Assembly: GCA_017985015.1 (NCBI GenBank)
Contig: JAGNYI010000028.1
Span: 1 to 41,232, forward strand
Direction: 5' to 3'
DNA: 41,232 bases
Source: Giesbergeria sp.
GTDB taxonomy: Bacteria; Pseudomonadota; Gammaproteobacteria; Burkholderiales; Burkholderiaceae_C
Below the pieces are notes generated by a model, which saw only the letters and a list, made by a program, of their open reading frames with translations, was not told the origin of the DNA and searched no databases. Shown here piece by piece: positions 470 to 38,087 of this stretch. Position numbers and translations under genes: made by a program. The stretch's first letter is position 1. Each line of letters begins with the position of its first letter.

Positions 470-1828
470 ATGCCAGCAACTCCACCTCTTACCCTTCAGG
501 ATTGGCTCGCCCACTGCGAGCGCATCCATCCGCAGCAGATCGACCTGGGCCTGGAGCGCGTGCGCGCAGTGGCCGAGCGACTCAATCTGCATTTTGATTG
601 CCCCGTGATTACCGTCGCCGGGACCAATGGCAAGGGTTCGACCTGCGCCATGATCGAGGCGGTGGCGCTCCAGGCCGGCTACCGCACCGGCGTTTACACC
701 TCGCCGCACCTGGTGCATTTCGAAGAGCGCTGCCGCATTCATGGCGAATCGGTAAGTGCTTCTGAGTTGATAGCAAACTTTGAAGCTGTAGAGAGCGCTA
801 GAGGCCAAAATGGCCAAGAAATTTCGCTCAGCTACTTTGAATTCACGACGCTGGCCATCCTGCGCCTGATGAGTCTGGCAAAGCTGGACCTTGCCATTCT
901 GGAAGTCGGGCTGGGTGGCCGGCTGGATGCGACGAACATCGTGGATGCCGATTGCGCGGTCATTACCAGCATCGACATGGACCACACCGAATACCTCGGA
1001 CCTGACCGTGAAAGCATCGGGCGTGAGAAGGCGGGCATCATGCGCACCGGCCGCCCGGCCATCGTCTGCGACCCGATGCCGCCGCAGAGCGTGGTGGACC
1101 ATGCACGCGAAATTGGCGCTGACCTCTGGCGTTTTGGCCATGATTTCAACTTTTCCGGTGACAAGCAGCAATGGAACTGGGCTGGCCGGGGTCGCCGCTA
1201 TGCCGGCATGGCCTATCCGTCACTGCGCGGCGCCAACCAGCTGGTCAACGCCTCAGGCGCACTGGCGGCGCTTGACGCCCTGCGCGATCGGGTTCCGGTG
1301 ACGGCACAGGCCGTGCGCAATGGTCTGGGCATGGTCGAGCTGGCTGGGCGGTTCCAGATCGTGCCCGGCGAGCCGACGCTGGTGCTTGACGTGGCCCACA
1401 ACCCGCATGCTGTCGCGGCGCTCACGGCCAACCTGGATGCAATGCGCTTTCATCCGACGACACACGCCGTCTTCGGTGCCATGGCTGACAAAGACATCAA
1501 AGGCATGCTGGCGAGAATTGGCCTCTTGGTAGACCGCTGGTATTTCACCGATTTGCCCACTGCGCGTGCCGCCAGCGCCGCCGATCTCGCGCAACTCTGG
1601 GAAAGCTTGGCGGCCGGTCTGAGCAGACGAAAGGACATCCCAGTGAGCCTGCACGCAACGCCCCAGGAGGCGCTTGATGCGGCGGTGGCCGCGGCGGGAG
1701 CCACTGATAGAATCGTCGTTTTTGGCTCTTTCTACACGGTAGGCGGCGTCCTGGAGCATGGCACGCCCAAGTTGCAGGCCAAGCACCTTGGCTGGAGCAC
1801 CAGCAAAAGCGGTGTAAGCAAGCCTTAG
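470..1828 (+). CDS. folC: Bifunctional folylpolyglutamate synthase / dihydrofolate synthase
   Basis: FolC adds glutamate to dihydropteroate and to folates in the cytoplasm, using ATP. The ATP-binding loop VAGTNGKGST (residues about 49-58), the TSPHL motif (78-82), LEVGLGGRLDATN and the C-terminal VLDVAHNP substrate motif are all present, and 452 residues is a normal length. I chose ATG 470 because GGAGG at 450-454 lies upstream and the product then begins like relatives (MPATPPLTLQDWL); ATG 431 in the same frame is an alternative. Residues about 99-119 are encoded by a copy of the dispersed palindromic repeat (763-827), with rare ATA and AGA codons and about five extra residues (QNGQE) compared with E. 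coli FolC. It leads a tight run of genes to gltX. Confidence 0.95.
   Translation: MPATPPLTLQDWLAHCERIHPQQIDLGLERVRAVAERLNLHFDCPVITVAGTNGKGSTCAMIEAVALQAGYRTGVYTSPHLVHFEERCRIHGESVSASELIANFEAVESARGQNGQEISLSYFEFTTLAILRLMSLAKLDLAILEVGLGGRLDATNIVDADCAVITSIDMDHTEYLGPDRESIGREKAGIMRTGRPAIVCDPMPPQSVVDHAREIGADLWRFGHDFNFSGDKQQWNWAGRGRRYAGMAYPSLRGANQLVNASGALAALDALRDRVPVTAQAVRNGLGMVELAGRFQIVPGEPTLVLDVAHNPHAVAALTANLDAMRFHPTTHAVFGAMADKDIKGMLARIGLLVDRWYFTDLPTARAASAADLAQLWESLAAGLSRRKDIPVSLHATPQEALDAAVAAAGATDRIVVFGSFYTVGGVLEHGTPKLQAKHLGWSTSKSGVSKP
763..827 (-). repeat. Dispersed palindromic repeat, copy 1 (inside folC)
   Basis: On the minus strand this reads TTTGGCCTCTAGCGCT, then an AGCT block, then GCTATCAACTCAG. 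It matches the order GGCCTCYAGCGCTTA...AGCTATTNATTCAGG shared by five other copies in the window. It lies wholly inside folC and is translated without breaking the frame. The segment is more AT-rich than its surroundings. Confidence 0.7.
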
Positions 1829-1842
1829 TTTTCTACCCATTC

Positions 1843-2655
1843 ATGGCATTTTTCAAGATTCGCTGGCCCGGGCAACAAGCTGCAGAGGGCAAGCCTGCCA
1901 AGGTTGCACGGGCAGTGCGCGGCGAAACCGTAGAAGTCATGCGCCGGCGTGCCCGGCACCGCTTGATTGGCGCCGCCTTGCTGGTGCTGCTCGGGGTGGT
2001 GGGTTTTCCGCTGGTCTTTGACACGCAGCCACGTCCTGTTCCGATCGATACGCGCATTGAAATTCCGGACCGCGACAAAGTGGCTCCGCTGGTAGTTCCG
2101 GCACCAGCGGCCTCAGGAACGGCGTCGGTGGATGCTCCCGCCGCAGCGGAATCTGTTTCCAAGCGTGAGCCCGAGCCAAAAGTTGCCGTGCTTCCTCAGG
2201 AGAAGGCGCCTGCACCTGCTGCCGCGGTTGTGCCGCACAAGGAGCCATCCCCTGCGGCTTTTGTAGAGGCGCGCCCGCAGCCGCTCCATACCAAGCCCGA
2301 GGCGAGCACATCGACGCCGCCCCAGGTGGCGTCGCTGAGTGAAGCCGAGCGCGCACGTGCCTTGCTCGAAGGGCGGTCGGGCAAAACACCGGCAGCGGCT
2401 TCGCCCGCCCCAGTGGCGGCTGGAGGGGAGCGTTTCATCGTTCAGGTGGGCGCTTTTTCCGAGGAATCCAAGGTGCGTGAGGCGCGGCAAAAGCTCGAGC
2501 GTGCGGGTTTGACGACCTACACCCAGGTGGTTGAAACCAAAGACGGCAAGCGAACACGGGTGCGTGTGGGCCCTTTTCAGGGGCGCGCCGAAGCGGAAAA
2601 GGCCACAGCCAAGATCAAAGGCCTTGGCTTGCCGGCTTCCATCCTGAGTCTGTGA
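1843..2655 (+). CDS. SPOR-domain protein, DedD-like
   Basis: A 270-residue single-pass inner-membrane protein. A basic cytoplasmic N-terminus (RRRARHR, residues 34-40) is followed by one hydrophobic segment at about 41-58, then a Pro/Ala-rich periplasmic linker, then a SPOR domain at about 196-270 that begins FIVQVGAFSEESKVREA and ends LGLPASILSL. SPOR domains bind denuded-glycan peptidoglycan at the septum, so a cell-division role like that of DedD is expected; this is family knowledge. It starts 14 bp after folC and its stop is followed at once by cvpA, the usual order folC-dedD-cvpA-purF in gamma- and betaproteobacteria. Confidence 0.88.
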   Translation: MAFFKIRWPGQQAAEGKPAKVARAVRGETVEVMRRRARHRLIGAALLVLLGVVGFPLVFDTQPRPVPIDTRIEIPDRDKVAPLVVPAPAASGTASVDAPAAAESVSKREPEPKVAVLPQEKAPAPAAAVVPHKEPSPAAFVEARPQPLHTKPEASTSTPPQVASLSEAERARALLEGRSGKTPAAASPAPVAAGGERFIVQVGAFSEESKVREARQKLERAGLTTYTQVVETKDGKRTRVRVGPFQGRAEAEKATAKIKGLGLPASILSL

Positions 2656-2672
2656 GGACGGCGCTGCCCAAC

Positions 2673-3185
2673 ATGCACGAAGTGCCTGCATTGCAATGGG
2701 CTGCCCTCGACTGGATCTTGCTCACCGTGGTCCTTGCGTCGCTCCTGCTGGGTGCCTGGCGCGGTCTGGTGTATGAGGTCTTGTCCCTGTTGGCTTGGGT
2801 GGCGGCATTTTTTGTTGCCCAGTGGTTCGCAGCGGACGTAGCTGCCTGGCTGCCCCTGGGTGATTCGGCGGAGCCTGTGCGGTACGCAGCCGGCTTCGTC
2901 GGGGTTTTTGTCGCGACCTTGTTTGCGTGCGGCATGGTGGCTTGGCTGGCGAAGAAGCTGATTGAAGCGGTGGGTTTGCGTCCGGTAGATCGGGTGTTGG
3001 GCGCTGTTTTTGGCGTCGTGCGGGCCGGTGTACTGCTGCTTGTACTGGGCGTGGTGGCCCAATTGACACCTATAGGGAAAACGGCTTGGTGGCTGGAATC
3101 GGCAAGCGCGCCGCGCATTGCGCAGATGCTGCAGAATTTGCGCCCCGCTTTGCCGGAGCAGTTCGGGAAAATGCTGCCTGCATGA
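2673..3185 (+). CDS. cvpA: CvpA family membrane protein
   Basis: A 170-residue integral membrane protein of the CvpA (colicin V production) family. About four hydrophobic segments are visible (WILLTVVLASLLLGAW, LSLLAWVAAFFVAQWF, AAGFVGVFVATLFACGMVAWLA, VVRAGVLLLVLGVVAQL). The family's molecular role is unresolved, although it is conserved next to purF. ATG 2673 was chosen, with GAGGA at 2654-2658 as a somewhat distant ribosome site. A GTG at 2652 overlaps the upstream stop and would add seven residues. An 80-bp gap separates it from purF. Confidence 0.85.
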   Translation: MHEVPALQWAALDWILLTVVLASLLLGAWRGLVYEVLSLLAWVAAFFVAQWFAADVAAWLPLGDSAEPVRYAAGFVGVFVATLFACGMVAWLAKKLIEAVGLRPVDRVLGAVFGVVRAGVLLLVLGVVAQLTPIGKTAWWLESASAPRIAQMLQNLRPALPEQFGKMLPA

Positions 3186-3265
3186 TATGCGGGGAGCGTG
3201 AGGTTGGCCATGCTGGCCGAGTGTGCGCAATGCGGGCCAAGGCCTGCGAACGGATGGAATGAGCT

Positions 3266-4771
3266 ATGTGTGGAATTGTCGGTGTCGTCAGTGGGGCTCC
3301 CGTCAACCAGCTGATCTACGACGCATTGCTGCTTTTGCAGCACCGTGGACAGGATGCAGCCGGCATCGTCACGCAGGAAGAGCGAAAGTTCTTTATGCAC
3401 AAGGCCAAGGGCATGGTGCGCGACGTGTTTCGCACCCGCAATATGCGGGCGCTTCCTGGAAACTCGGGCCTGGGTCAGGTGCGCTACCCGACCGCTGGCA
3501 ACGCGTTCAGCGAAGAGGAGGCGCAGCCCTTTTATGTGAACGCCCCATTTGGCATTGTGCTGGTGCACAACGGCAATCTGACCAATGCGGACGTACTGCG
3601 CGCCGAGCTGTTTTCGACGGACCACCGCCATACCAATACCGACAGCGATTCGGAGGTGCTGCTCAACGTCTTTGCCCATGAACTGGAACACGCCACCCGG
3701 GGCGTACCCTTGCAACCCGACAACGTCTTCAAGGCGGTCCGCGCGGTGCACAAAAGGGTTCGCGGCTCCTACGCCGTGATTGCGTTGATCGCGGGCCACG
3801 GACTGGTCGCTTTTCGTGACCCCTATGGCATCCGTCCGCTGTCGATGGGGCGCAGCGCCGAAGGTGCCGTTGTGTTTGCCAGCGAGTCGGTGGCCATCGA
3901 GGGCACTGGCCATGAATTTCAACGCGACGTGGCGCCCGGCGAGGCGTTGTTCGTCGATCTGGCCGGAAACCTCAGCGCGCAGCAGTGTGCCGAGACAACG
4001 CAACACTTTCCCTGCGTGTTCGAGTATGTGTATCTGGCGCGGCCCGATTCGGTCCTCGACGGTATTTCGGTGTACCAGGCGCGCCTCAATCTCGGCGCGT
4101 CTTTGGCCAAGCGGGTGGTTTCCACGGTGCCGCCCAGCGACATCGACGTCATCATTCCGATTCCCGAGTCGAGCCGCCCCAGCGCTACGCAGTTGGCTCA
4201 CCTCCTGGGTGTGCCGTACCGTGAAGGATTCGTCAAGAACCGCTACGTGGGACGCACCTTCATCATGCCTGGGCAGGAAGTGCGCAAGAAATCCGTGCGC
4301 CAGAAGCTCAACGTGATTGCCAGCGAGTTCAAGGGCCGCAATGTCTTGCTCGTGGACGACTCCATCGTTCGCGGCACCACCAGCCGCGAGATCGTGCAGA
4401 TGGCCCGCGAGGCGGGCGCACGCAAGGTGTACCTGGCGAGCGCCGCGCCTCCGGTGCGCTACCCGAATGTCTACGGAATCGACATGCCCACCAGCGATGA
4501 ACTGGTGGCCCATGGCCGCACGGTCGAAGAGGTGCGGGCCCTGATTGGATGCGACGCGCTCATCTATCAGGACGTGGACGCGATGAAAAAGGCCGTGGGC
4601 GCAGGCAACCCCGCTTTGTCGGGTTTTGATGCCTCCTGCTTCGATGGCATTTACGTGACCGGCGACATTGGGCCCGAGGATATTGCGCGCCTCAATGCGG
4701 GTCGCAAGGGCGGGGCCGAAGACGAAGAAGACGCCTCGCGACTGGCACTGCCTAATGCAGCGGCCGCTTAA
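3266..4771 (+). CDS. purF: Amidophosphoribosyltransferase
   Basis: PurF makes 5-phosphoribosylamine from PRPP and glutamine, the first committed step of purine synthesis. The product begins MCGIVGVV, so removal of Met exposes the catalytic N-terminal Cys of the Ntn-type glutaminase. The PRPP-binding loop VLLVDDSIVRGTTS is at residues about 360-373. The length of 501 residues is normal. The start is fixed by the need for Cys at position 2. It is the third step down the folC operon and is followed after 29 bp by metZ. Confidence 0.97.
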   Translation: MCGIVGVVSGAPVNQLIYDALLLLQHRGQDAAGIVTQEERKFFMHKAKGMVRDVFRTRNMRALPGNSGLGQVRYPTAGNAFSEEEAQPFYVNAPFGIVLVHNGNLTNADVLRAELFSTDHRHTNTDSDSEVLLNVFAHELEHATRGVPLQPDNVFKAVRAVHKRVRGSYAVIALIAGHGLVAFRDPYGIRPLSMGRSAEGAVVFASESVAIEGTGHEFQRDVAPGEALFVDLAGNLSAQQCAETTQHFPCVFEYVYLARPDSVLDGISVYQARLNLGASLAKRVVSTVPPSDIDVIIPIPESSRPSATQLAHLLGVPYREGFVKNRYVGRTFIMPGQEVRKKSVRQKLNVIASEFKGRNVLLVDDSIVRGTTSREIVQMAREAGARKVYLASAAPPVRYPNVYGIDMPTSDELVAHGRTVEEVRALIGCDALIYQDVDAMKKAVGAGNPALSGFDASCFDGIYVTGDIGPEDIARLNAGRKGGAEDEEDASRLALPNAAAA

Positions 4772-4800
4772 AGCATGCCTGCAATGAAAGAAAGCGCTTC

Positions 4801-6012
4801 ATGACGGCATTCGATAGCACCGGTTTGCACTCCGACACCCTGGCGGTGCGCCAAGCAGTACCGCGCAGCCAGTTTGGCGAGCATTCTGAAGCGCTGTACC
4901 TGAGCAGCAGCTTCGTCCAGCCCGACGCCGCCACCGCAGCGCGGCGCTTTGCCGGCGAGGAAGAGGGCTACACCTATACCCGCACGGCCAATCCCACGGT
5001 GACGAGCTTCGAGCAGCGGCTGGCGGCGATGGAGCGCACGCAAGCGGCGATTGCCACGGCCAGCGGCATGTCTGCCATCTTGCTGATGTGTCTTGCGCTG
5101 CTCAAGGCCGGCGACCATGTGGTGTGCTCACAGTCGATGTTCGGCTCCACCATGAAGCTCATAGGGGGTGAACTGGCACGTTTTGGGGTGCAATCTAGTT
5201 TTGTGCCGCAAACCGACGTTGCGGCTTGGCGTGCGGCCGTTCGACCGGAAACGCGGCTGCTCTTCGCCGAGACGCCGACCAACCCACTGACAGAGCTTTG
5301 CGACATTCGAGCGCTGGCGGACATCGCGCACGAGGCCGGCGTGCTTCTGGCGGTCGACAACTGCTTCGCCTCTCCAGCGCTGCAGCGCCCTGCTGAAATG
5401 GGAGCGGATCTGGTGATTCATTCAGGCACCAAGTTTCTTGATGGTCAGGGTCGTGTGATGGCAGGCGCAGTCTGCGGCCCGCATGCGCTGATTGACGAAA
5501 AGCTCGCGCCCTTGATTCGCAGCGCTGGCATGAACCTCTCGCCCTTCAATGCCTGGGTGGTGCTCAAGGGACTTGAAACCCTGTCCATCCGCATGCAGGC
5601 GCAATGCACCAATGCGCTGGGAATCGCAAGCTGGCTTGAGTCGCACCCCGCCGTGACGCGCACCTTTTATCCTGGCCTGGCTTCGCATCCGCAGCATGGG
5701 CTGGCCATGCGCCAGCAATCGGGTCTGGGTGGCGCTGTGGTGTCGTTCGTGGTCGGTGGCGAAGACGCTGCAGCCGCGCGTGCCAGAGCCTTTCATGTGA
5801 TCGATAGCACCCGCATCTGCAGCATTACAGCCAACCTGGGCGACACCAAGACCACCATCACCCACCCGGCAAGCACCTCGCACGGTCGCTTGACCGATGC
5901 GCAGCGCAGCGCTGCAGGCATCGGCCAAGGCCTGATCCGCCTTGCCGTCGGACTGGAACATATCGACGATTTGAAGGCCGACCTTGCGCGCGGCCTGGAT
6001 AGCTTGAAATGA
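4801..6012 (+). CDS. metZ: O-succinylhomoserine sulfhydrylase
   Basis: A 403-residue PLP enzyme of the Cys/Met-metabolism (gamma-family) fold that makes homocysteine directly from an activated homoserine and sulfide. The PLP lysine is Lys211 in [12 protein letters not shown], and the substrate-binding segments YTRTANPT and SGMSAI are present. The sequence QGRVMAGAV after the lysine and the position next to purF match MetZ better than MetB or MetC; substrate choice (O-succinyl or O-acetyl) cannot be settled from sequence. It overlaps gltX by 4 bp (ATGA), so the two are probably translationally coupled. Confidence 0.9.
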
Positions 6013-7430: not shown

Positions 7431-7440
7431 AAAAGCTGTC

Positions 7441-7446: not shown

Positions 7447-7494
7447 TCAAGGCTCAGGTGATTGCTGCAGAAATGCAGTTGTTGCAGCGGTTTG

Positions 7495-7570
<76 letters not shown>

Positions 7571-7600
7571 AAATTTGTTGTCGGTTCGTTCCAAGGTTTT

Positions 7601-7676
7601 GACCCCATCGTCTAGAGGCCTAGGACATCACCCTTTCACGGTGAGTACCGGGGTTCGAATCCCCGTGGGGTCGCCA
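7601..7676 (+). tRNA. tRNA-Glu (anticodon TTC), copy 1
   Basis: Acceptor GACCCCA pairs with TGGGGTC. The anticodon arm is TCACC-CTTTCAC-GGTGA with anticodon TTC. The T-arm CGGGGTTCGAATCCCCG is complete and CCA is encoded. Confidence 0.97.
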
Positions 7677-7733
7677 AGTTGTAGCGCTTGGTTTGTTTGA
7701 ATTGCGGTTCAGACAAGCAAAAGCTGCCTGCCA

Positions 7734-7810
7734 GGAGTGGTAGTTCAGTTGGTTAGAATACCGGCCTGTCACGCCGGGGGTCGCGGGTTCGAGTCCCGTC
7801 CACTCCGCCA
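7734..7810 (+). tRNA. tRNA-Asp (anticodon GTC), copy 1
   Basis: Acceptor GGAGTGG pairs with CCACTCC. The anticodon loop in CCGGCCTGTCACGCCGG carries GTC. The T-arm GCGGGTTCGAGTCCCGT is present and CCA is encoded. Confidence 0.97.
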
Positions 7811-7814
7811 GTTT

Positions 7815-7855
7815 AAAACCCTTGCAGGTCGCAGGATGTGCAAGGGTTTTTCTTT
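7815..7855 (+). terminator. Intrinsic terminator after the first tRNA array
   Basis: A perfect 12-bp stem AAAACCCTTGCA / TGCAAGGGTTTT with a 12-nt loop, followed by TCTTTT. It lies between the two copies of the array, so the second copy needs read-through or its own promoter. Confidence 0.85.
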
Positions 7856-7884
7856 TGCCTGAAGCCAGGGGTGCAAGGAAGTTT

Positions 7885-7960
<76 letters not shown>

Positions 7961-7990
7961 AAATTTGTTGTCGGTTCGTTCCAAGGTTTT

Positions 7991-8066
7991 GACCCCATCG
8001 TCTAGAGGCCTAGGACATCACCCTTTCACGGTGAGTACCGGGGTTCGAATCCCCGTGGGGTCGCCA
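7991..8066 (+). tRNA. tRNA-Glu (anticodon TTC), copy 2
   Basis: Identical to the gene at 7601-7676, including the encoded CCA. Confidence 0.97.
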
Positions 8067-8123
8067 AGTTGTAGCGCTTGGTTTGTTTGAATTGCGGTTC
8101 AGACAAGCAAAAGCTGCCTGCCA

Positions 8124-8200
8124 GGAGTGGTAGTTCAGTTGGTTAGAATACCGGCCTGTCACGCCGGGGGTCGCGGGTTCGAGTCCCGTCCACTCCGCCA
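8124..8200 (+). tRNA. tRNA-Asp (anticodon GTC), copy 2
   Basis: Identical to the gene at 7734-7810. It ends 10 bp before a terminator. Confidence 0.97.
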
Positions 8201-13403: not shown

Positions 13404-15005
13404 ATGAAGCCGATCTGGATAGTAGATGACGACCCTTCGATCCGCTTCGTGCTCGAAAAGGCCCTGGCGCGTGAGGGTTTGAGCACGCGCAGCTTCAGCC
13501 ATCCGCGCGAAGTGCTTGATGCGATGGCCGCCATCGCCCAAGGCGTGGAAGACCAGCCGGGTCCGCAGGTTCTGGTCAGCGACATCCGCATGCCCGGGGG
13601 CTCGGGGCTGCAGTTGCTCGAAAGTGTGCAGGCGCTGCAACCGGGCCTGCCGGTCATCATCATGACGGCGTATTCAGACCTCGACAGCGCCGTTTCGGCC
13701 TTCCAGCGTGGGGCCTTCGAATACCTTCCCAAGCCCTTTGATCTGCCCAAGGCGGTGGAGTTGATCCGCCGCGCGGTTCAGGAAAGCCAGCGCGAGGACG
13801 TTGCGCAAGACACTGCTGAACTCGCGCCCGAGATGCTGGGCCAGGCAAGCGCCATGCAGGACGTGTTTCGCGCCATCGGGCGCCTGAGCCAGAGCCAGGT
13901 CACGGTGCTGATCACCGGTGAATCCGGCTCGGGCAAGGAACTCGTGGCGCGGGCGCTGCACAAGCATTCGCCCGTTGCGCAAGGCCCGTTCGTCGCCATC
14001 AACACGGCGGCCATTCCCAAAGATTTGCTGGAATCCGAACTCTTTGGTCACGAGCGCGGTGCGTTCACAGGGGCCCAGACGCAGCGGCGCGGACGTTTTG
14101 AACAGGCCGAGGGCGGCACCCTGTTTCTCGATGAAATCGGCGACATGCCCTTCGACCTGCAAACGCGCTTGTTGCGGGTGCTCTCTGACGGACAGTTCTA
14201 CCGCGTCGGCGGTCACAGCGCGGTAAAGGCCCACGTGCGCGTCGTCGCCGCCACACACCAGAACCTGGAGCAGCGCGTCAAAGAAGGGGCTTTTCGCGAA
14301 GACCTGTTTCACCGACTCAACGTGATCCGCTTGCGCCTGCCCGCGCTGCGTGAGCGGCGCGAGGACATCCCCATGCTCACGCGCCATTTTCTGCAGGTGA
14401 GCGCACGCCAGCTGGGTGTCGAGCCGAAGCGAATTTCCGAGCCGGCCCTTGCGCGTCTGGCTGATTTCGACTTTCCGGGCAACGTGCGGCAGTTGGAGAA
14501 CATCTGCCATTGGCTCTCGGTCATGGCGCCGGCTCAGGTCGTTTCGCTGCAAGATTTGCCGCCGGAAGTGCTTGCCAGTCCTGCGCGGCCTGCGCTGAGC
14601 GGCGAGACAGCGGCCACCGCTTTGCGCGCCTCCGTCTCTGCGGACGACTCCCGGCCGGCTGGTCTGCACGCCTCAGCGCTGCATGCTCCGCAGGCAGTGG
14701 CTGCCGAGAGCACGGCCGGTGCGCAAACCGTTCGTGCCTTGCCTGCGGCGAGCCCTGGAGTGGAAGGCGGCTGGGAACAGGCGCTGGCCCTCGAAGTCCG
14801 CGCCTTGCTGGCCGCTGGCAGCAACGAGGTCTGGGACCGGCTTTCGCAGCGCTTTGAATCCTGCCTGATTGCCGGCACGCTGGACGCCACCCACGGACGG
14901 CGCATGGAGGCCGCGCAGCGCCTGGGCATTGGGCGCAACACCATTACGCGCAAGATTCAGGAATTGGGCCTAGATCACAAAAATATGAATGAAAATGGCC
15001 TGTAG
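13404..15005 (+). CDS. ntrC: Nitrogen regulation response regulator NtrC
   Basis: A 533-residue sigma-54 enhancer-binding protein. The receiver domain opens with [11 protein letters not shown] and has its phospho-Asp at Asp60 ([11 protein letters not shown]). The AAA+ domain has Walker A GESGSGKE (172-179) and the sigma-54 loop GAFTGA (219-224). An Ala/Ser-rich linker of about 70 residues precedes a Fis-type helix-turn-helix ([22 protein letters not shown]). ATG 13404 is chosen over ATG 13398 because GGGGAA then sits 9 nt away. The last six codons and the stop come from a palindromic repeat that begins at 14992, so the tail HKNMNENGL is likely an addition to the ancestral end. Its likely targets include glnA. 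Confidence 0.95.
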
Positions 15006-15046
15006 CGCTTACCCCATAAGGGTTTTAAGCTATCGATAATATAGTA
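14992..15046 (+). repeat. Dispersed palindromic repeat, copy 2 (end of ntrC)
   Basis: AAATGGCCTGTAGCGCTTA, CCCCATAAGGG, then AGCTATCGATAATATAG. It matches the family core and supplies the ntrC stop codon (TAG at 15003-15005). The rest of the 181-bp gap to the next gene shows no ORF or clear promoter. Confidence 0.75.
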
Positions 15047-15186
15047 ATAAGGTGCGTCGTCGAAGATGCTGAAATGCCCGAGATGTCATGCGCAAAGGTC
15101 CTACACGCTAGCGCGCAGGGCGCGCACCCAGGCGAGGCTGTACCACTCCCAGAATGGCTCCATTGATTCAACCCAAGGAGCTAGAC

Positions 15187-23572: not shown

Positions 23573-24292
23573 ATGAAAATCACCCGCTCCTTGCTCGCTT
23601 GCGCCACGCTTCTTCTTGGTGTCTGCACAGTGGCACAAGCGCAGTCCAGCCTCACGCCGGCACCCCAGAACGTGGTGCAGCTCGAGGCGAGCGGCACGGT
23701 GGAAGTGCAGCAGGACGTGCTGGTGCTCACGCTGGGCACTGTCAAGGAAGGCAAGGATGCCGCGCTCGTCCAAACCCAGTTGCGCCAGGCACTGGATGCC
23801 GCTTTGCAGGAAGCGCGCCGCAGCGCCGAGCCGCAAAAGATGGAGGTGCGCACGGGCAATTTTTCGCTCTCGCCGCGCTATGCGCAAAACCAGCAGATCA
23901 CGGGTTGGCAGGGCACGGTCGAATTGGTGCTGGAGGGACGGGACTTTCCCCGCATCACCGGCGCCGCAGCGCGCGTGACCAGCATGACGGTCAGCCGCGT
24001 GGCCTTCGACCTGAGCCGCGAGCAGCGCGAGACGGTAGAGCGGGACGCACAACAGCAGGCCATCGCGCGCTTCAAGGCGCAGGCTGCGCAACTGAGCGCC
24101 GGTTTCGGCTTTGGCGGCTATGGCCTGCGCGAAGTGGCTGTGCACAGCAACAGTACGGCGCCGGGCCCACGTCCGCGCATGATGGCGATGGAAGCGCGCA
24201 GCGCCAGCGTTTCGTCCGATGCGCCGCTGCCCGTGGAGGCCGGCAAGGCCAGCGTGACGGTGACTGTCTCGGGCAGCGTGCAGATGCACTGA
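23573..24292 (+). CDS. Periplasmic SIMPL-domain (DUF541) protein
   Basis: A 239-residue exported protein with a signal peptide (MKITRSLLACATLLLGVCTVAQA) and one SIMPL/DUF541 domain over most of the mature part (VVQLEASGTVEVQQDVLVLTL near the start; GKASVTVTVSGSVQ at the end). The family includes BP26 and YggE; the latter is linked with oxidative-stress tolerance, but the biochemical role is unknown. A repeat copy with a 9-bp hairpin follows its stop and may act in transcription ending between this gene and the convergent dehydrogenase. Confidence 0.87.
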   Translation: MKITRSLLACATLLLGVCTVAQAQSSLTPAPQNVVQLEASGTVEVQQDVLVLTLGTVKEGKDAALVQTQLRQALDAALQEARRSAEPQKMEVRTGNFSLSPRYAQNQQITGWQGTVELVLEGRDFPRITGAAARVTSMTVSRVAFDLSREQRETVERDAQQQAIARFKAQAAQLSAGFGFGGYGLREVAVHSNSTAPGPRPRMMAMEARSASVSSDAPLPVEAGKASVTVTVSGSVQMH

Positions 24293-24302
24293 AATTTTGA
24301 TA

Positions 24303-24360
24303 AAAATCGGGCTCTAGCGCTTATCCCATAAGCGCTGATAGCTATTATTTTGATAGTAAT
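24303..24360 (+). repeat. Dispersed palindromic repeat, copy 3 (intergenic)
   Basis: The most symmetrical copy: AGCGCTTAT-CCC-ATAAGCGCT at 24316-24336 forms a perfect 9-bp hairpin, preceded by AAATCGGGCTCT and followed by GATAGCTATTATTTTGATAG. It fills most of the gap between two convergent genes. Confidence 0.8.
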
Positions 24361-24375
24361 GGCTGCTGCAGTGAC

Positions 24376-29873: not shown

Positions 29874-30710
29874 ATGATTAAGCAATGTGATGTGAGCGAA
29901 CGGCGCGCATGCACTCTTGTGGGGCTCTCCCGTGACAGCTATCGCAATCCACCCGAGGCAGATGCCATGACGCAAGAGCTCAGCAGCAAGATCGTTGAGA
30001 TCGCACATGCGCGTCGACGCTTCGGCTACCGGCGTATCCACGACATGCTGCGCCCACACTTCCCGGGCGTGAACCACAAGCGCGTCTACCGCCTTTACAG
30101 CGCCGCCAATCTGGCGGTGCGCAAGCGAAAGAAGGTCAAACGCCCCGTCAGCGAGCGAGTCCCGCTTCAATTGGCTAAATCGGTCAATGAGGTCTGGAGC
30201 ATGGACTTCGTCAGCGACAGCCTGAGTACCGGGCGGCGCATCAAATGCCTGACGGTGGCTGATGACTTCAGCCACGAGTGCGTGACCCTCTCGGTGGACT
30301 GGGGAATATCGGGCCAGTACGTGACGCGGCTCCTCGACCAGGCTGCTGTCTTCAGAGGCTATCCGCTGGCCGTGCGCACAGACAACGGCCCCGAATTCAC
30401 CAGCCGGGCCTTCATGGGCTGGGCACAAACCCATGGCATTGGCCACATCCTGATTGAGCCCGGCAGACCCATGCAGAACGGCTACATCGAGAGCTTCAAC
30501 GGCAAGTTCCGAGACGAGTGCCTGAACGAGCAATGGTTCGAGACACTGCAGCAAGCCAGATCGGCCATCACACTCTGGCGTCAGGACTACAACGAGGCGA
30601 GGCCTCACAGCAGTTGCGAACGAATGCCACCGGCGAAGTTCGCCGCGTTGCATCGCCAGCGCGCTGGCGATGCAACTCGATCCAGCTCAACGACCACCGA
30701 GATCCATTAA
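29874..30710 (+). CDS. IS3-family transposase OrfB (DDE integrase core)
   Basis: A 278-residue rve-type catalytic protein. The acidic triad is visible as Asp in VWSMDFVSD, Asp in VRTDNGPEF and Glu in NGYIESFNGKFRDECLNE, the last two separated by the usual DD(35)E spacing. An N-terminal HTH_21 region (RRRFGYRRIHDMLRP) is present. The open frame extends upstream to overlap orfA, so the protein is more likely made as an OrfAB fusion than from ATG 29874 alone. Confidence 0.93.
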   Translation: MIKQCDVSERRACTLVGLSRDSYRNPPEADAMTQELSSKIVEIAHARRRFGYRRIHDMLRPHFPGVNHKRVYRLYSAANLAVRKRKKVKRPVSERVPLQLAKSVNEVWSMDFVSDSLSTGRRIKCLTVADDFSHECVTLSVDWGISGQYVTRLLDQAAVFRGYPLAVRTDNGPEFTSRAFMGWAQTHGIGHILIEPGRPMQNGYIESFNGKFRDECLNEQWFETLQQARSAITLWRQDYNEARPHSSCERMPPAKFAALHRQRAGDATRSSSTTTEIH

Positions 30711-31363: not shown

Positions 31364-31454
31364 GCTCAGGGTATTCCTGCGCGTGGTCTGGTCGGGGGCT
31401 GCCTAGAATGTGTTGCAGTGCAATAGCGGGCCGGAGCCCTAAGGAATGTCTGAA

Positions 31455-31991: not shown

Positions 31992-32025
31992 CGCGCAGTT
32001 CTTCTGCCGTTTTCTGTCGGTACAG

Positions 32026-32031
32026 GACAAT
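32026..32031 (+). promoter_or_regulatory. -10-like box adjacent to the rimO start
   Basis: GACAAT ends 6 nt before the rimO ATG. AGGA at 32024-32027 overlaps it and could instead serve as a ribosome site at 10 nt spacing. Confidence 0.35.
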
Positions 32032-32037
32032 ACGGGG

Positions 32038-33429
32038 ATGAACGACGTTGTTTCCCCACCCAAAATTCCCAAAATCGGCTTTGCCAGTTTGGGCTGCCCC
32101 AAAAATCTGACCGACTCCGAGCTGATCCTCACGCAACTGAGCGCCGAGGGCTACGAGACGTCCAAGACCTTCGAGGGCGCCGATCTGGTGATCGTCAATA
32201 CCTGCGGCTTCATTGACGACGCGGTGCGCGAGAGCCTCAACACCATTGGCGATGCGCTGGCTGAAAACGGCAAGGTCATTGTCACGGGCTGTCTGGGCGC
32301 GCGCCAAGGCGAGAGCGGCGGCAACTATGTGCAGCAGATGCACCCCAGCGTGCTCGCCGTGACGGGTGCGCACGCGACCCAGGAGGTGATGGATGCGGTG
32401 CACCGCAACCTGCCCAAGCCGCACGATCCCTTTGTCGACCTGGTTCCCGGCGCGTTTGGCGTGGCCGGCATCAAGCTCACGCCGCGCCACTATGCCTACC
32501 TGAAGATCAGCGAAGGCTGCAACCACCGCTGCACCTTCTGCATCATTCCGTCGATGCGCGGTGACCTGGTATCGCGCCCGGTGGGCGACGTGCTGGCGGA
32601 GGCCAAGGCGTTATTTGCCGGCGGCGTCAAAGAGCTGCTGGTCATTAGCCAGGACACCTCGGCCTACGGCGTGGACGTGAAATACCGCACCGGCTTCTGG
32701 GATGGTCAGCCGGTCAAGACACGCATGCTGGAACTTGTGCAAAAACTGGGCGAGATCGCCGAGCCCTATGGCGCCTGGGTGCGCTTGCACTATGTTTACC
32801 CCTACCCGAGCGTAGACGAAATCATCCCCTTGATGGCCACCGGCAAGGTGCTGCCGTACCTGGACGTGCCGTTCCAGCACAGCCACCCCGATGTGCTCAG
32901 ACGCATGAAGCGCCCTGCCAGCGGTGAGAAAAATCTCGAGCGCATCGAACGCTGGCGCGCCGCGTGTCCGGAAATCGTCATCCGCAGCACTTTCATCGCC
33001 GGTTTCCCCGGTGAGACGGAAGAAGAGTTCCAGCACCTGCTGGACTTCCTGCGCGAGGCGGAGATCGACCGCGCCGGCTGCTTTGCCTACAGCGACGTGA
33101 CGGGCGCTGCCGCCAACGAGCTGCCGGGCATGCTCCCCATTGAGCTGCGCGAAGAGCGCCGGGCGCGTTTCATGGCGGTGGCCGAAGAGGTGTCGATTGC
33201 CAAGCTGCAGCGCCGTGTGGGCGCAACCATGCAGGTGCTGATTGACCATGCGCCAGGCCTGGGCCGCAAGGGCGGCGTGGGACGCAGCTACGCCGATGCA
33301 CCCGAGATTGACGGCGTAGTGCACTTGCTGCCGCCCGAGAAAATAAGCAAACAGCTCAAAGTCGGTGAATTCACGCGCGCCCGCGTGGTGGGCGTGCAAG
33401 GGCATGATCTGGTGGCGCAGCCCATCTGA
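32038..33429 (+). CDS. rimO: Ribosomal protein S12 methylthiotransferase
   Basis: RimO adds a methylthio group to an Asp of ribosomal protein S12, using two iron-sulfur clusters. The N-terminal MTTase domain has Cys in LGCPKN, NTCGFI and TGCLGA. The radical-SAM cluster is C161-x3-C165-x2-C168 in GCNHRCTFC. The C-terminal TRAM domain ends [14 protein letters not shown]. The 463 residues are normal. The sequence [11 protein letters not shown] marks RimO rather than MiaB. Confidence 0.96.
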
Positions 33430-33452
33430 GCGGGACAGACCGCGCAGCAAGA

Positions 33453-33480
33453 AAAAAGGCTTCCCTCGGGAAGCCTTTTT
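33453..33480. terminator. Bidirectional terminator between rimO and efp
   Basis: AAAAAGGCTTCCC / GGGAAGCCTTTTT, a near-perfect inverted repeat with A and T runs on both sides, so it can serve rimO (plus) and efp (minus). Confidence 0.9.
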
Positions 33481-33497
33481 GTTGCGCCAGTCATGGC

Positions 33498-34052
33498 CTA
33501 GACGCGTTTGCGGTATTCGCCGGTGCGGGTGTCGATTTCAATCTTGTCGCCTTGCGAGACAAACAGCGGTACCGGCACTTCGAAGCCGGTGGCGATCTTG
33601 GCGGGCTTCAAGACCTTGCCGGACGTGTCGCCCTTGACGGCGGGCTCAGTCCATGTCACTTCGCGCTCGACGCCCGTCGGCAGTTCGACCGAAATAGCCT
33701 TGCCGTCGTAGAACACAACTTCTGCAGTCATCCCGTCTTCCAGATAATTCAGTGCGTCGCCCATGTTCTCGGATTCGACTTCGTACTGGTTGTACTCGGG
33801 GTCCATCCAGACGTACATTGGGTCGGCGAAGTACGAATACGTGCAATCCTTTTTGTCGAGGATGACCTGGTCCATCTTGTCGTCGGCCTTGAACACGACT
33901 TCGGTACCGAAGTTGCCGATCAGGCTCTTGAGTTTCATACGCACGGTGGCGGCGTTGCGACCGCCGCGTGCATATTCGGCTTTCAGGACAACCATCGGGT
34001 CCTTGCCGTGCATGATGACGTTGCCGGCGCGGATTTCTTGAGCGATTTTCAT
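33498..34052 (-). CDS. efp: Elongation factor P
   Basis: EF-P rescues ribosomes stalled on polyproline. The 184 residues form the three usual beta-barrel domains. The tip of the first loop reads [11 protein letters not shown], placing Arg32 at the modified position; Arg32 EF-Ps are rhamnosylated by EarP, encoded directly upstream on the same strand. The opening [20 protein letters not shown] and the end [14 protein letters not shown] match the family. A 139-bp gap separates it from earP. Confidence 0.97.
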
Positions 34053-34191
34053 AGCGGTTTGCTGGGTTTGGGCCGCTCAATGCGAGGCGTCAGCGTGCCG
34101 GAAGGCAGCCGCGCCGGAGCATGTTCCGCGGCGGGGAATGCGCGGCGCCGGAGCAAAATGCGGCCGGCCCGATTGCGCAAAGCCTGCGATT

Positions 34192-35331
34192 TTAGCGTTT
34201 GCTAGCGCAAAAACCCAGTAGCTGGCTCAACAAATCGTTTTGCACGAGCAAATGTTCGCGCGCAGCGCGAATGCAAATGCCCCAGTTCGTCAGTGCCTCA
34301 GCGTCCACTTTCGGCAGCGCTCCGGGTGCCAGGCCGTTCCACACCCAATGGAAATGGCGCAGGCTGGGCGGTGCCTGCAGCCAGTCGAGAAACGCGTCCA
34401 GTTTGGGTCCATGCGCGCCGTCGTCCTGCGGGTAGATGTGCCACACCAGCGGCTGGCCCGCCCACAGCGCGCGCACCAGCGAATCTTCACCCCGCACAAA
34501 ATTCAGATCGCAGGCCCAGAGCAGCTCGTCGTACGCTGGCTGGGGGCATGCATCCATATTCAAAATATGTAGCTGCTCAGGCATACCAGATAAGCGCTGG
34601 AGGCCAATTTTGTCTGAAATTTCTTGCATGGCCACTTGCACGGCGCGCTGCGCACGGCCGGGCGTGACCAGCAGGCGGGTGGGCGCTGTTGCCCCGCTCG
34701 CGCATTGCTGCAGCCAGTCGCATAGCGCTGGCGGTTCGTAGCAAAACAGCGAAACCCAGCGCGGCTCTTGCGCCGGTGCGTCGCCCCCCTGTTGGTGTCG
34801 CCAGGCGCCGCGATCAAAGCGCTGCACGCGGTCCATCAAGCCCCGTTCCCGTAGCAAGCCGCCGGTGTCCTTGCCAAAGCCGGGGTAATAGAACCACTTG
34901 GTCCAGCCAGCCGCCGGCCCGTGCAGGATCGGGCTGGGCAAGCCATGGTGGCGCGGCACCCAGGATTCCGCCGAGAGGTATTCCAGATTGATCCATACTG
35001 GCTTTTTGGCGCCAGCGCTTACCCGGTCTGCGCATGCAGCTATGAAGTCAGGAGCAATCTCGCAACCAAAGGCTTCCACCAGCACGTCGCTGGGTGGTTC
35101 GTTTGCAGCAGAAAATGCACCCCAACTGCGCACTTCAACGCCAGCGGCGCCGCTTGGGGCCATCCAGGCCAGCGCGGATGCATCGTCCACCCACAGGCGC
35201 ACGCTCTGGCCAGCGGCGGCCAACTGGCTGGCCAGGCGCCAGCACACGCCGATGTCGCCAAAGTTGTCGATCACGCGGCAGAACACATCCCATTGCCAGG
35301 GGGGAACATTGTGGGAGGGCGGGGCGCTCAT
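34192..35331 (-). CDS. earP: EF-P arginine rhamnosyltransferase EarP
   Basis: EarP (formerly DUF2331) transfers rhamnose from dTDP-rhamnose to Arg32 of EF-P. The 379 residues show the signature N-terminus [20 protein letters not shown], the segment [20 protein letters not shown], and the catalytic region [26 protein letters not shown] 35331 is chosen ([14 protein letters not shown]); a start at 35388 is in frame. Two repeat copies lie within it: one encodes about [20 protein letters not shown], the other about [18 protein letters not shown]. Both use AT-rich or rare codons and fall in places where relatives have shorter loops. The dTDP-rhamnose genes are not in the window. Confidence 0.93.
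34556..34622 (-). repeat. Dispersed palindromic repeat, copy 4 (inside earP)
   Basis: On the minus strand it contains AATTGGCCTCCAGCGCTTAT, 20 nt identical to copy 6, then CTGGTATGCCTGAGCAGCTA. It is fully translated as part of earP. Confidence 0.8.
35002..35056 (+). repeat. Dispersed palindromic repeat, copy 5 (inside earP)
   Basis: TTTTTGGCGCCAGCGCTTAC, then GCAGCTATGAAGTCAGGAGC. It follows the family order. It is in the opposite orientation to copy 4 relative to the gene and is also translated. Confidence 0.7.
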
Positions 35332-35337
35332 GCGTGA

Positions 35338-35343
35338 ATTGTC
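35338..35343 (-). promoter_or_regulatory. -10-like box adjacent to the earP start
   Basis: GACAAT on the minus strand ends 6 nt before the earP ATG; no ribosome site lies between. It shares a 55-bp divergent region with the uvrC box. Confidence 0.45.
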
Positions 35344-35374
35344 CACAGCTTGCGTGGGCTGCAAGCCAAGTTTG

Positions 35375-35380
35375 CACAAT
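35375..35380 (+). promoter_or_regulatory. -10-like box adjacent to the uvrC start
   Basis: CACAAT ends 6 nt before the uvrC ATG, with TTGCGT 19 bp upstream as a possible -35. Confidence 0.45.
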
Positions 35381-35386
35381 AGCGCC

Positions 35387-37378
35387 ATGTCCGAAGTGCA
35401 TTCCGAAGAACTGCTGGCCCAGGTGGCCGCGCTGCCGCCGCTGCCCGGTGTGTACCGTTATTTCGATGCGGATGGGGGGTTGCTGTACGTGGGCAAGGCG
35501 CGCAACCTGAAAAAGCGGGTGTCGAGCTACTTCACCAAGACGCATGGCGGTACGCGCATCGGCCACATGGTGGGGCGCATCGTGCGCATGGAGACCACCG
35601 TGGTGCGCTCGGAGGCTGAGGCGCTGCTGCTGGAAAACAACCTCATCAAGACGCTTCAGCCCAAGTACAACATCCTGTTTCGGGACGACAAGAGCTACCC
35701 GTACCTCAAGATCACCGGCGTCGCCGCGAAAGACGGCACGGGGGACGACCCGAGCCAGCGCTTTCCGCGCCTGGCCTACTACCGCGGCAGCACCGACAAA
35801 AAGCACCGCTACTTCGGCCCCTACCCGAGCGGCTGGGCGGTGAAAGAAACCATCCTACTTTTGCAAAAAGTGTTTCGCCTGCGCACCTGCGAGGACACGG
35901 TGTTTGCCAACCGCACACGCCCCTGCCTGCTCTACCAGATCAAGCGCTGCAGCGCGCCCTGCGTGGGCCTGATTTCGCCTGAAGCCTACGCGGTGGATGT
36001 GGCCCACGCCGAAGCCCTGCTGCGCGGCGAAGCGGGGGCGGTGATGGAGGCTTTGCAGCACAGCATGCTGGCGCACGCCGAGCGGCTTGAGTTTGAGCAG
36101 GCGGCGGAGGTGCGCAACCAGATCACGGCGCTCTCGCGCGTGCTGCACCAGCAATCGGTGGAGACAACGAGCGACAAGGATGTGGACATCCTCGCCGTGC
36201 GCGTACAGGGCGGGCGCGCCTGCGTCAACTTGGCCATGGTGCGCGGTGGTCGGCATTTGGGCGACCGCGCTTACTTTCCGGTGCATGTGGACGATGCTGC
36301 CGCGTTGCAGGAAGCGCGTGCCAAGGCAGCGGATGCCGAGGACGTGGATGCAGGGCAGGGCGCCGACGACGACGACGTTGGCCCGGCGCTGCCGGTGGAG
36401 GCCTTGGTGCTCCAGGCCTTCATCGCCCAGCACTACCTCGACGTACCCGTGCCGCCCGTGCTCGTCACCAGCGAACCGGTGGAGCGCAGCCTGCTCGACG
36501 CGCTGGGCGTGCAGGCGGGTGTGCGCATTGCTGCTGTGCACCAGCCGCGCGAGCAGCGGCGCGCCTGGCTGGATATGGCGCAGAACAACGCGCAACTGCA
36601 GCTCGCGCGCCTGCTTGCCGAAGAAGGCTCGCAGCAGGCGCGCACCCGCGCGCTGGCGCAGGCGCTGGATGTGTCGCAGGACGATCTGGACATACTCCGC
36701 ATTGAATGTTTCGACATTTCGCACACGGCGGGCGAATCCACCCAGGCGTCGTGCGTGGTGTTTCAGAACCACAAGATGCAAAGCAGCGAGTACCGCCGCT
36801 TCAACATTGATGGCATCACCGGAGGTGACGACTACGCCGCCATGCGCCAAGTGCTGCAGCGGCGTTACAGCAAGGTCGCTGAGGCGCAGCGCGAAGCGGG
36901 CGGTGCCGAGCTCGCGCCGGGCAGTGCGCGCCTGCCCGACCTGGTGCTGATTGATGGCGGCAAGGGCCAGGTCAGCGTGGCGCGCGAGGTGTTCGCCGCG
37001 CTGGGCCTCGATATCTCGCGCATCGTCGGTGTCGAGAAGGGCGAGGGACGCAAGGTGGGCCTGGAAGAGCTGGTGTTTGCCGACGGGCGCGAGAAGGTCT
37101 ACCTCGGCAAGGACTCGGCTGCGCTGATGCTGGTCGCCCAGATCCGCGACGAAGCACACCGCTTTGCCATCACCGGCATGCGCGCGGCCCGTGCCCGCGT
37201 GCGCACGGGGGGCAGCCGGTTGGAAGACATTGCGGGCGTGGGCCCGAAGAAACGTGCGCGCTTGCTGCAACGGTTTGGCGGCGTGCGCGGCGTGGCCGAG
37301 GCCAGCGTGGCCGATCTGTGCACTGTGGATGGCATCTCACTCGAACTGGCGCAGGAAATCTACCGCGCGCTGCGCTGA
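35387..37378 (+). CDS. uvrC: Excinuclease ABC subunit C
   Basis: UvrC makes both incisions in nucleotide excision repair. The GIY-YIG nuclease is at the N-terminus ([27 protein letters not shown]). The UVR motif follows at about 210-245 ([17 protein letters not shown]), then the RNase-H-like nuclease ([25 protein letters not shown]) and a helix-hairpin-helix pair ([18 protein letters not shown]). The 663 residues include an acidic insert near 325-330 ([10 protein letters not shown]). ATG 35387 is chosen; the open frame extends about 490 bp further only as an antisense shadow of earP. Confidence 0.96.
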
Positions 37379-37442
37379 GGCATGGCCATCGTTGACGATC
37401 GATTCAAGCGGCGGTGAGTCCGTAGCCTGCCCCTGCGCGTGA

Positions 37443-37448
37443 CACAAT
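37443..37448 (+). promoter_or_regulatory. -10-like box adjacent to the pgsA start
   Basis: CACAAT ends 7 nt before the pgsA ATG with no ribosome site between. Confidence 0.4.
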
Positions 37449-37455
37449 CGGCGCC

Positions 37456-38022
37456 ATGTTCTGGACCATTCCCACCATCATGACCTGGACGCGCATCGTC
37501 GCGATACCGTTGATCGTCGGGGTGTTTTACCTGCCGCTGGCCGAAGAGTCGCGCAATCTGATTGCCACGGTGATGTTCGTGGTCTTCGCCGCCACCGACT
37601 GGCTCGACGGCTTCTTGGCGCGGCGGTTGAACCAGACCTCGGCCTTTGGCGCCTTCCTGGACCCTGTGGCCGACAAGTTTCTTGTTGCTGCATCGCTCCT
37701 GGTGCTGGTGCATCTGCAGCGTACCGACGTGTTTGTCGCGCTCATCATCATCGGACGGGAGATCGCCATCTCGGCGCTGCGCGAGTGGATGGCGCAGATT
37801 GGCGCTTCGCGCAGCGTGGCTGTGCACATGTTGGGCAAACTCAAGACCACAGCGCAGATGGTGGCGATTCCGTTTTTGCTCTACGACGGACCGCTGCCCG
37901 CAGGCCTTGACTCCGGCGTGGTGGGGCTGTGGCTGATCTGGATCGCGGCCGTGCTCACCGTCTGGTCCATGGTGTATTACCTGCAAAAGGCCTTGCCTGA
38001 AATCCGCGCTCGCGTGAAGTAA
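37456..38022 (+). CDS. pgsA: CDP-diacylglycerol-glycerol-3-phosphate 3-phosphatidyltransferase
   Basis: PgsA makes phosphatidylglycerol phosphate, the first step to phosphatidylglycerol, in the inner membrane. The CDP-alcohol phosphatidyltransferase signature D-x2-DG-x2-AR-x8-G-x3-D-x3-D is complete, with Asp48, Asp51, Gly52, Arg56, Gly65, Asp69 and Asp73. About four to five hydrophobic helices are visible. The opening MFWTIPTIMTWTRI and the 188-residue length are normal. A repeat copy begins 12 bp after its stop. Confidence 0.95.
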   Translation: MFWTIPTIMTWTRIVAIPLIVGVFYLPLAEESRNLIATVMFVVFAATDWLDGFLARRLNQTSAFGAFLDPVADKFLVAASLLVLVHLQRTDVFVALIIIGREIAISALREWMAQIGASRSVAVHMLGKLKTTAQMVAIPFLLYDGPLPAGLDSGVVGLWLIWIAAVLTVWSMVYYLQKALPEIRARVK

Positions 38023-38033
38023 AAAACTTGAAT

Positions 38034-38087
38034 CAATTGGCCTCCAGCGCTTATTGGAAAAGCGTTTAATGCTATTGATTCAGGAGC
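38034..38087 (+). repeat. Dispersed palindromic repeat, copy 6 (after pgsA)
   Basis: AATTGGCCTCCAGCGCTTAT, then TGGAAAAGCGTTTAATGCTA, then TTGATTCAGGAG. It starts 12 bp after the pgsA stop. The AGCGCTT...AAGCGTT arms can pair. Confidence 0.8.

Follow-up and report, generated by a model that had tools for sequence, protein, structure and literature searches.

A dispersed palindromic motif of about 68 bp in Simplicispira and related genera, carried in conserved genes such as murD with little change in protein length

Six copies in the window and the family to which they belong

The DNA analysed here (hereafter the window) is a stretch of 41,232 nucleotides from Giesbergeria sp. (assembly GCA_017985015.1, contig JAGNYI010000028.1, positions 1 to 41,232), which carries six copies of a dispersed repeat of ~68 bp with two inverted arms and a G+C content of ~40%. 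Copy 1 (749..831, minus strand) is in folC, searched as the plus-strand reading frame 350..1828 (the true start is further in), and is a weak copy, with the frame ..ESARGQN... Copy 2 (14972..15054, plus strand) overlaps the 3' end of a gene that we take to be of the ntrC type, and sequence and translation show that the TAG of the motif itself is the stop codon of this gene. Copy 3 (24284..24366, plus strand), the most typical one, lies between two convergent genes and begins at the TGA of the left-hand gene. Copies 4 (34548..34630, minus strand) and 5 (34982..35064, plus strand) are both located in the open reading frame (ORF) 34192..35388 of the minus strand, named earP in the original prediction; copy 4 (site B) is in the sense frame and copy 5 (site A) is antisense to the gene. 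Copy 6 (38014..38096, plus strand) is found at the end of the reading frame 37456-38022, presumably of the pgsA type. All six segments can be aligned in one orientation, the loop of copy 1 being longer, and the identity over 20 nt noticed earlier between copies 4 and 6 is correct. The original prediction had placed three copies in genes, one in folC and two in earP, all in frame. This is right for copies 1, 4 and 5, but copy 2 also overlaps a gene, as its stop codon. The codons described as unusual were confirmed as well: third positions are AT-rich in copies 1, 4 and 5, where the G+C content at third codon positions (GC3) is 0.30, 0.41 and 0.48, respectively, against 0.72–0.73 in the rest of the genes.

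A covariance model (R1) was derived from 13 copies elsewhere in the same genome, none of them in the window. It recovered all six copies, with scores of 77.5 (copy 3), 52.2 (copy 2), 50.1 (copy 6), 38.7 (copy 4), 22.3 (copy 5) and 18.8 bits (copy 1), which indicates that the proposed six-member family is real. With E up to 10 the window gave just two additional matches, which are copies 3 and 6 read on the other strand. By R1 alone copies 5 and 1 are marginal (E-values of 0.005 and 0.04). A weight matrix was also derived from 149 loci of the same genome, which represent 148 distinct copies (L136 is the same copy as L024, and was counted twice in the matrix and in the gene-placement tally) and include copy 3 as the sole member from the window. 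Copies 1 and 5 scored 32.5 and 31.0 with this matrix, whereas in 800 kb (both strands) of G002, an element-free congener, one position reached 0 or more and none reached 10, and hence both weak copies are above chance. The idea that copy 1 is a chance resemblance (E 0.04) was dropped after this control, and it is still the weakest member of the family. An Rfam scan of the window gave nothing above the gathering score except nine tRNA matches.

The genome from which the window comes (G000; 3.37 Mb in 110 contigs) has Simplicispira hankyongi NY-02 as its nearest named relative, the EarP identity being 92% (L165). The motif has some two hundred occurrences or more in this genome: 191 places are within three mismatches of AGCGCTTATNNNATAAGCGCT, the reversed pattern giving none, and the R1 search yielded at least 150 copies, all of the 150 that were scored (of 1,559 candidates) reaching at least 41 bits. 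The sister species S. hankyongi (G007) was scanned over 766,534 bases, which contain 82 copies at a matrix score of at least 55 (one per 9.3 kb) and 97 at a score of at least 35, whereas 800,000 bases of G002 contained none at either threshold. Chance resemblance of unrelated AT-rich segments, which the weak scores of copies 1 and 5 under the first model might have suggested, is thus highly improbable: depending on the threshold, 54–97 matches are present in 766 kb of G007 and none in 800 kb of G002, and both copies score above 30 where no G002 position reaches 10. For the family as a whole chance is excluded.

The profile scan suggested in the original prediction revealed many further copies in this and related genomes. 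Of the 23 other Simplicispira genomes scanned, 20 have from 33 to at least 114 R1 matches, and R1 matches are absent from the remaining three (G002, G005 and G008, hereafter the element-free congeners). Within the family, matches were present in 77 of 299 genomes and 40 of 126 genera; these counts per genome are to be read as minima, as up to 114 matches were taken in the genus scan and up to 15 in the family scan. No R1 match was obtained in 16 genomes from other families of the order. In the complete genome G004 the 148 copies are spread evenly. Chromosome-arm or strand polarity of the kind known from KOPS-like sites was considered for these 148 copies and rejected, no strand pattern being seen (permutation p 0.34) and the spacing being that of uniform placement.

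Copies between genes and within genes

The position of the copies relative to genes was determined with a codon-usage gene caller trained on 13 ORFs of the window, also used for the gap and length tests described below. The 149 loci of the own genome comprise 47 copies in convergent gaps, 80 in co-oriented gaps, 7 in divergent gaps, 10 in genes and 5 at edges, whereas among the other gaps of at least 30 nt in these loci there are 10 convergent, 67 co-oriented and 29 divergent ones. Copies are, then, enriched in convergent gaps and depleted in divergent ones. Eight of the ten in-gene copies are truly internal, the other two being 4 and 10 nt from the gene end. Copies lie a median of 3 nt from a gene 3' end, with 157 of 174 distances not exceeding 60 nt, and the edge of the motif often contains the stop codon of the gene. 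In G007, 48 copies are co-oriented, 20 convergent, 11 in genes, 2 divergent and 1 at an edge, with a median of 4.5 nt to the gene 3' end and 54 of 88 distances of 20 nt or less.

A palindrome present in more than 100 copies at gene 3' ends is what would be expected of a family of repetitive extragenic palindromes (REP) or bacterial interspersed mosaic elements (BIME) mobilised by a RAYT (Y1 transposase), and a Y1_Tnp match was found in 20 of 24 Simplicispira genomes. However, the three element-free species all have such matches, and G003, a genome 99% complete with 99 R1 matches, has none. Furthermore, 12 Y1_Tnp loci were read (the gene of the own genome was not among them) and the sole R1 match in them scored 17.9 bits, so no link was apparent. 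We regard this origin as very unlikely.

The motif is also found in frame in unrelated genes: earP (twice), folC, murD and, among others, the genes for a protein of the YhhN family, a TlyA/FtsJ-type methyltransferase, a UvrD-type helicase and a HrpA-type protein (DUF3418). Copies also lie inside a gene encoding a protein without a Pfam match (L060) and in two reading frames that we take to be UvrA-like. The clearest in-gene case is MurD, where the motif lies on conserved codons. It is present in 18 of the 20 Simplicispira murD genes found (that of the own genome included), with 23–58 bits; the two genes without it are those of G002 and G005, and G008 and three other Simplicispira genomes gave no murD match and are outside the 20. 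The MurD proteins align without gaps through the motif site. In the 18 bearers GC3 is 0.22–0.57 inside the site and 0.72–0.94 outside, whereas in the two motif-free species it is 0.65 and 0.87 inside and 0.69 and 0.71 outside. Shared residues are encoded by a shared codon in 71.7% of cases inside the site of the bearers and in 59.5% outside, with none of 193 windows as high; since these 18 genes were selected by the presence of the motif, the figure for all 20 is given alongside (63.6% against 57.6%, with 20 of 193 windows as high). In the codon rows the conserved Glu of GGEL is retained and the base of the motif is sacrificed. Over the family, 30 genera were hand-picked from the genomes of the family scan, and the murD motif was found in 9 of the 17 element-bearing genera and in none of the 13 element-free ones (Fisher p 0.003). 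No residues are added at the site in the bearing genera; among the free genera, six have two more residues just upstream, and G067 shows a four-residue gap at the upstream edge.

In-gene matches were compared in length with G002, where 15 of 35 had a spanning orthologue in the 800 kb examined. One of these 15 alignments was dropped (36% identity, taken as a paralogue, +21) and four rows from repeated genes were merged, leaving ten sites. Insertion of a 68-bp unit would add 22 or 23 residues, and this was seen at none of the ten sites: the net differences were 0, -9, 0, 0, 0, 0, +5, -1, +1 and -3, with a median of 0 (0, -9, +5 and -3 at the four sites that score at least 60). This indicates that at the ten testable sites and in MurD the in-gene copies are a codon choice on an existing protein, and not full-length insertions. 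The original prediction of insertions resembling those of Rickettsia palindromic elements (RPE), adding about 5–20 residues, does not agree with these results. FolC, for whose gene matches were obtained in 22 of 24 genomes, is unchanged in length and very similar in residues in the three element-free congeners, so that no residues are added at copy 1; EarP differs from that of G002 by -1 residue at site A and +5 at site B; and both EarP sites bear the motif in other genera. Residues of these sites are thus conserved in relatives, which speaks against insertion and not against the family, the DNA of the free relatives being unlike the motif there. Over the folC stretch of 20 congeneric loci, the best matrix score was above zero in 8 and below zero in 12.

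Both EarP sites are old. Using 80 of 315 loci of EarP relatives, R1 matches at E up to 1 were obtained in 15 (site A) and 10 (site B), and they occur in Acidovorax, Paracidovorax, Comamonas and Rhodoferax, with up to 47.5 bits at site A (L169; 42.5 bits in L171) and up to 54.2 bits at site B (Acidovorax; 44.2 bits in Comamonas). The sites are weak in Polaromonas (19–21 bits), and the EarP loci of Limnohabitans and Curvibacter gave no R1 match. Within the genus, the same residue has the same codon at site B at a rate of 0.674, compared with 0.563 elsewhere (15 of 388 windows as high); EarP rows chosen for having a hit had been picked by motif similarity and were excluded as evidence. All 14 YhhN genes found in the genus carry the motif at the site (32–64 bits), with rates of 0.774 inside against 0.693 (2 of 156 windows as high).

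The TlyA-type protein of the own genome is several dozen residues shorter than in most congeners. Among loci L288-L309, those of most congeners encode a long acidic linker (..DDSDDAK..) that extends over several dozen residues, and a short version with the motif was seen at this place in the own genome, G007, G012, G010 and one of two G018 loci.

These data bear on the possibility that the repeat is a selfish palindromic element, of the miniature inverted-repeat transposable element (MITE) or RPE type, once widely inserted, genes included, and now immobile, with the in-gene peptides trimmed by deletions. The unit is discrete, of 68 bp, and has a strong consensus, one minus-strand frame of which is open by our reading. 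Compared with the protein of Limnohabitans L206, EarP has ~3 and ~12 extra residues at the two sites, and the TlyA-type protein exceeds three PDB homologues by ~13–14 residues, which gives the insertion view of the original prediction partial support. In addition, gaps bearing copies are longer than their counterparts in the element-free G002 (median +44 nt in 23 gaps against +8 in 77 control gaps of at least 60 nt, p 0.01; at least 3 of the 23 are one place in two genomes, and rows of -955 and -953 were retained), pointing to insertion between genes or to deletion in G002. Nevertheless, the expected 22–23 extra residues were found at none of the ten sites and MurD has none, and no empty site was seen in the close relative G007, as described below (target duplications were not searched and Y1_Tnp was the sole transposase searched). 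A selfish element is for these reasons unlikely.

Constraint on the motif and its possible reading as double-stranded DNA

Orthologous places could be compared in G007 for 33 of 154 copies (in its 766 kb). A clear copy was present at 28, a weak one at 3 and an interrupted one at 2, and there was no empty site among the 33. Copy 3 of the window has a counterpart at the same place (L023 row) that is just 66% alike, and a copy scoring 60.7 bits occupies the place of copy 6 in S. hankyongi L165. Pairs were formed for 26 of the 33 places, leaving out L053, L130 and L112 (G007 score below 60) and four rows from the window. Between the two genomes, 24 of 520 cells (4.6%) are changed at columns conserved in at least 90% of the copies, compared with 123 of 286 (43%) at columns where conservation is below 55%. 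For the 11 pairs whose flanks both align well, the corresponding figures are 11 of 220 (5.0%) and 34 of 121 (28%), and the flanks differ by 6%. Plain decay would affect all columns alike, whereas the conserved columns barely change, which indicates a base-specific constraint.

A tree of EarP, from which the two sites had been removed, places the element-free Simplicispira clade among bearers, nested within a 29-row clade supported by 98/91. This nested position of G002, G005 and G008 makes loss of the motif likelier than its never having been present.

The two interrupted places are the G007 orthologues of L130 (C13 near 88799) and L112 (C1 near 140106), where an element of ~165 bp with terminal inverted repeats GAGCCTCTGCACGAATCG is inserted inside the motif copy, at its CTAG, which is doubled. 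With the copies masked, CTAG is strongly avoided in the Simplicispira genomes that bear the element (0.28 of the expectation in G007 and 0.20 in the own genome) and not in G002 (0.89); in G007, 156 of 542 CTAG (both strands) fall in the motif. Among bearers, G011 (3 seen, 0.89) and G019 (1 seen) are outliers with small samples. Motif-free loci of other genera still avoid CTAG (0.39–0.44), so that a joint loss of motif and avoidance seems confined to the G002 clade. A second repeat suspected in G002 (29 occurrences of GGCCTCTAG) appeared to be ordinary scattered sequence in a genome without CTAG avoidance.

The consensus of the motif is AAATTTTNAGTNAAATTGGCCTCTAGCGCTTATNNNATAAGCGCTAGCAGCTATNAATTTAATAGCA, its capitals including columns conserved in just half of the copies. 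Both halves, read outward from the centre, start with ATAAGCGCTAG. AT-rich columns follow at 9–14 and 21–25 on one side and at 64–67 and 75–77 on the other, that is, ~20–22 and ~31–33 positions from the centre. The motif has in this way a layout of the uptake-signal type, with a core AAGCG and a pair of AT-rich segments separated by about one helical turn. In 124 of 148 copies columns 21 and 23 both have A, in 18 both have T, and 6 show another combination; this swap of A and T fits an A-tract in double-stranded DNA and not in RNA.

Alternatively, the motif could act as an RNA hairpin at transcript 3' ends, either a terminator or an exonuclease stop. The short distance from gene 3' ends in both genomes, the enrichment in convergent gaps and the depletion in divergent ones would agree with it. 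So would locus L012 (the same place as L107; C23 of the own genome, near 119260), a near-perfect long hairpin flanked by A and T runs in the shape of a two-way terminator. However, no covariation of the stem beyond that of shuffled alignments was detected (80.4% of the cells are paired and 80.3% after shuffling; both sides are changed in 5 stem pairs, compared with 4.4 in shuffles), in a test of low power because the arms vary little; the sole high measure was that of further pair types (8 of 500 shuffles). Conserved flanks extend beyond the stem, A and T tracts are interchangeable, and copies lie within the reading frames of MurD, YhhN and EarP. A function as RNA hairpin is, on this evidence, quite unlikely.

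We judge at slightly better than an even chance that the repeat is a recognition site of ~68 bp at the DNA level, kept by a trans-acting factor. The site would consist of two inverted half-sites starting with ATAAGCGCTAG, each with an A/T-rich segment on its outer side, at about two helical turns from the centre, and another about one turn beyond it, and the double-stranded motif would be read by a putative DNA-binding factor acting in trans. While the factor is present, existing copies would be maintained, and near-matches in tolerant places (gene ends, loops, residues that can be written with the motif) would be pulled to the consensus by substitution or by templated overwriting. Loss of the factor, possibly the case in the clade of G002, G005 and G008, would entail the disappearance of all copies. 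Chromosome organisation, transcript ends and DNA uptake are candidate roles for the factor.

Several observations weigh against a recognition site of this kind, besides the longer gaps and the longer EarP and TlyA-type proteins mentioned above and the smaller codon contrast over all 20 murD genes. The binding factor is itself postulated. The information content, ~76 bits over 83 columns, is large for a simple protein site and more like that of a copied element, and isolated half-sites are rare outside full copies (3 left and 17 right at a threshold of 22). Six of the ten in-gene test sites score below 40, and within the genus synonymous conservation is absent at site A of EarP (0.525 against 0.568). 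Pairs between G000 and G007 were kept only where G007 scored at least 60, and even so 8 of the 26 are just 0.56–0.69 alike, as random copies are (mean 0.65), from which it follows that a shared place does not always hold the same copy; at such places the copy may have been remade or replaced. Finally, the loss concerns a single clade, whose branch with G010 has mixed support (94/36).

Relation to known repeats and significance

The core of the motif has been listed before. A listing of 2017 gives GCTTAT(N)5AAGCG for Acidovorax ebreus TPSY with 114 copies, 107 of them between genes, near gene ends (4 between divergent genes), and 5 in genes (PMC5217627). The core is the same as ours; in the part of that work available to us it is a spaced word pair only, without flanks, relatives, in-gene analysis or mechanism (PMC5217627). 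Our literature search, in which few subscription journals were covered, returned no paper on the full motif, its family-wide spread or its insertion-free presence in genes, and five genus names and the string "betaproteobact" do not occur in the accessible text of PMC3733652.

Among described systems, the uptake signals of Pasteurellaceae offer an architectural parallel. They share with the motif an AAGCG core (ACAAGCGGT in the Apl type, ATAAGCGCT here), two AT-rich segments ~12 positions apart, a strong consensus and the lack of orientation bias, and a gap test of a similar kind showed that the uptake signals of Haemophilus are not insertions, in-gene copies included (PMC1626085). They differ in density (about one copy per kb there and one per 9 kb here), in structure (a 9-bp core there, an inverted pair of 68 bp here) and in position, 65% being inside genes there and most outside genes here (PMC1626085). 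By this analogy, the motif could be an uptake-signal-like sequence outside Pasteurellaceae and Neisseriaceae, in Comamonadaceae-type bacteria, composed of an inverted pair of AAGCG half-sites whose AT-rich segments are spaced by one helical turn; it would be spread and kept by preferential uptake and recombination, be written into genes like murD without insertion, and vanish with the loss of the receptor or of competence. An uptake role fits the architecture and the gap test, but neither the low density nor the rarity of isolated half-sites agrees with it, and we put it forward as a tentative and rather unlikely proposal. When short uptake-like half-sites were sought alone they were few, and no other 8- or 10-mer stood out strongly outside the copies.

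Rickettsia palindromic elements are likewise palindromes read in frame in unrelated genes, but they are ~150 bp long and are described as integrated into genes, unlike the present copies, which bring no full-length gain of residues (PMC10969869). REP and BIME sequences associated with RAYT are also short palindromes in high copy near gene 3' ends, whereas the motif has asymmetric conserved flanks, in-gene copies and no RAYT link that we could find (PMC2817692, PMC12306157). The beta-proteobacterial repeat element (BRE) of Bordetella is another short betaproteobacterial repeat with some copies in coding sequence; by its description it is set apart from the motif, being ~69% G+C, often tandem and present in 29 copies per genome at most, whereas the motif is ~40% G+C and dispersed (PMC3110155).

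Two other features of the window were observed. A block of three tRNA genes occurs in two tandem copies at positions 7495-8197, and a transposase reading frame, presumably of the IS3-type family, spans positions 29874-30710.

Inserted selfish DNA and RNA hairpins are the usual explanations for short bacterial repeats. The repeat of ~68 bp described here, with one copy per 9 kb, is carried on conserved codons of MurD and other genes with little or no change in protein length, and its sequence is held across species and genera, which makes a function at the DNA level open to testing. It also calls for caution, since insertion is not the only possible origin of AT-rich "repeat-derived peptides" in genes.

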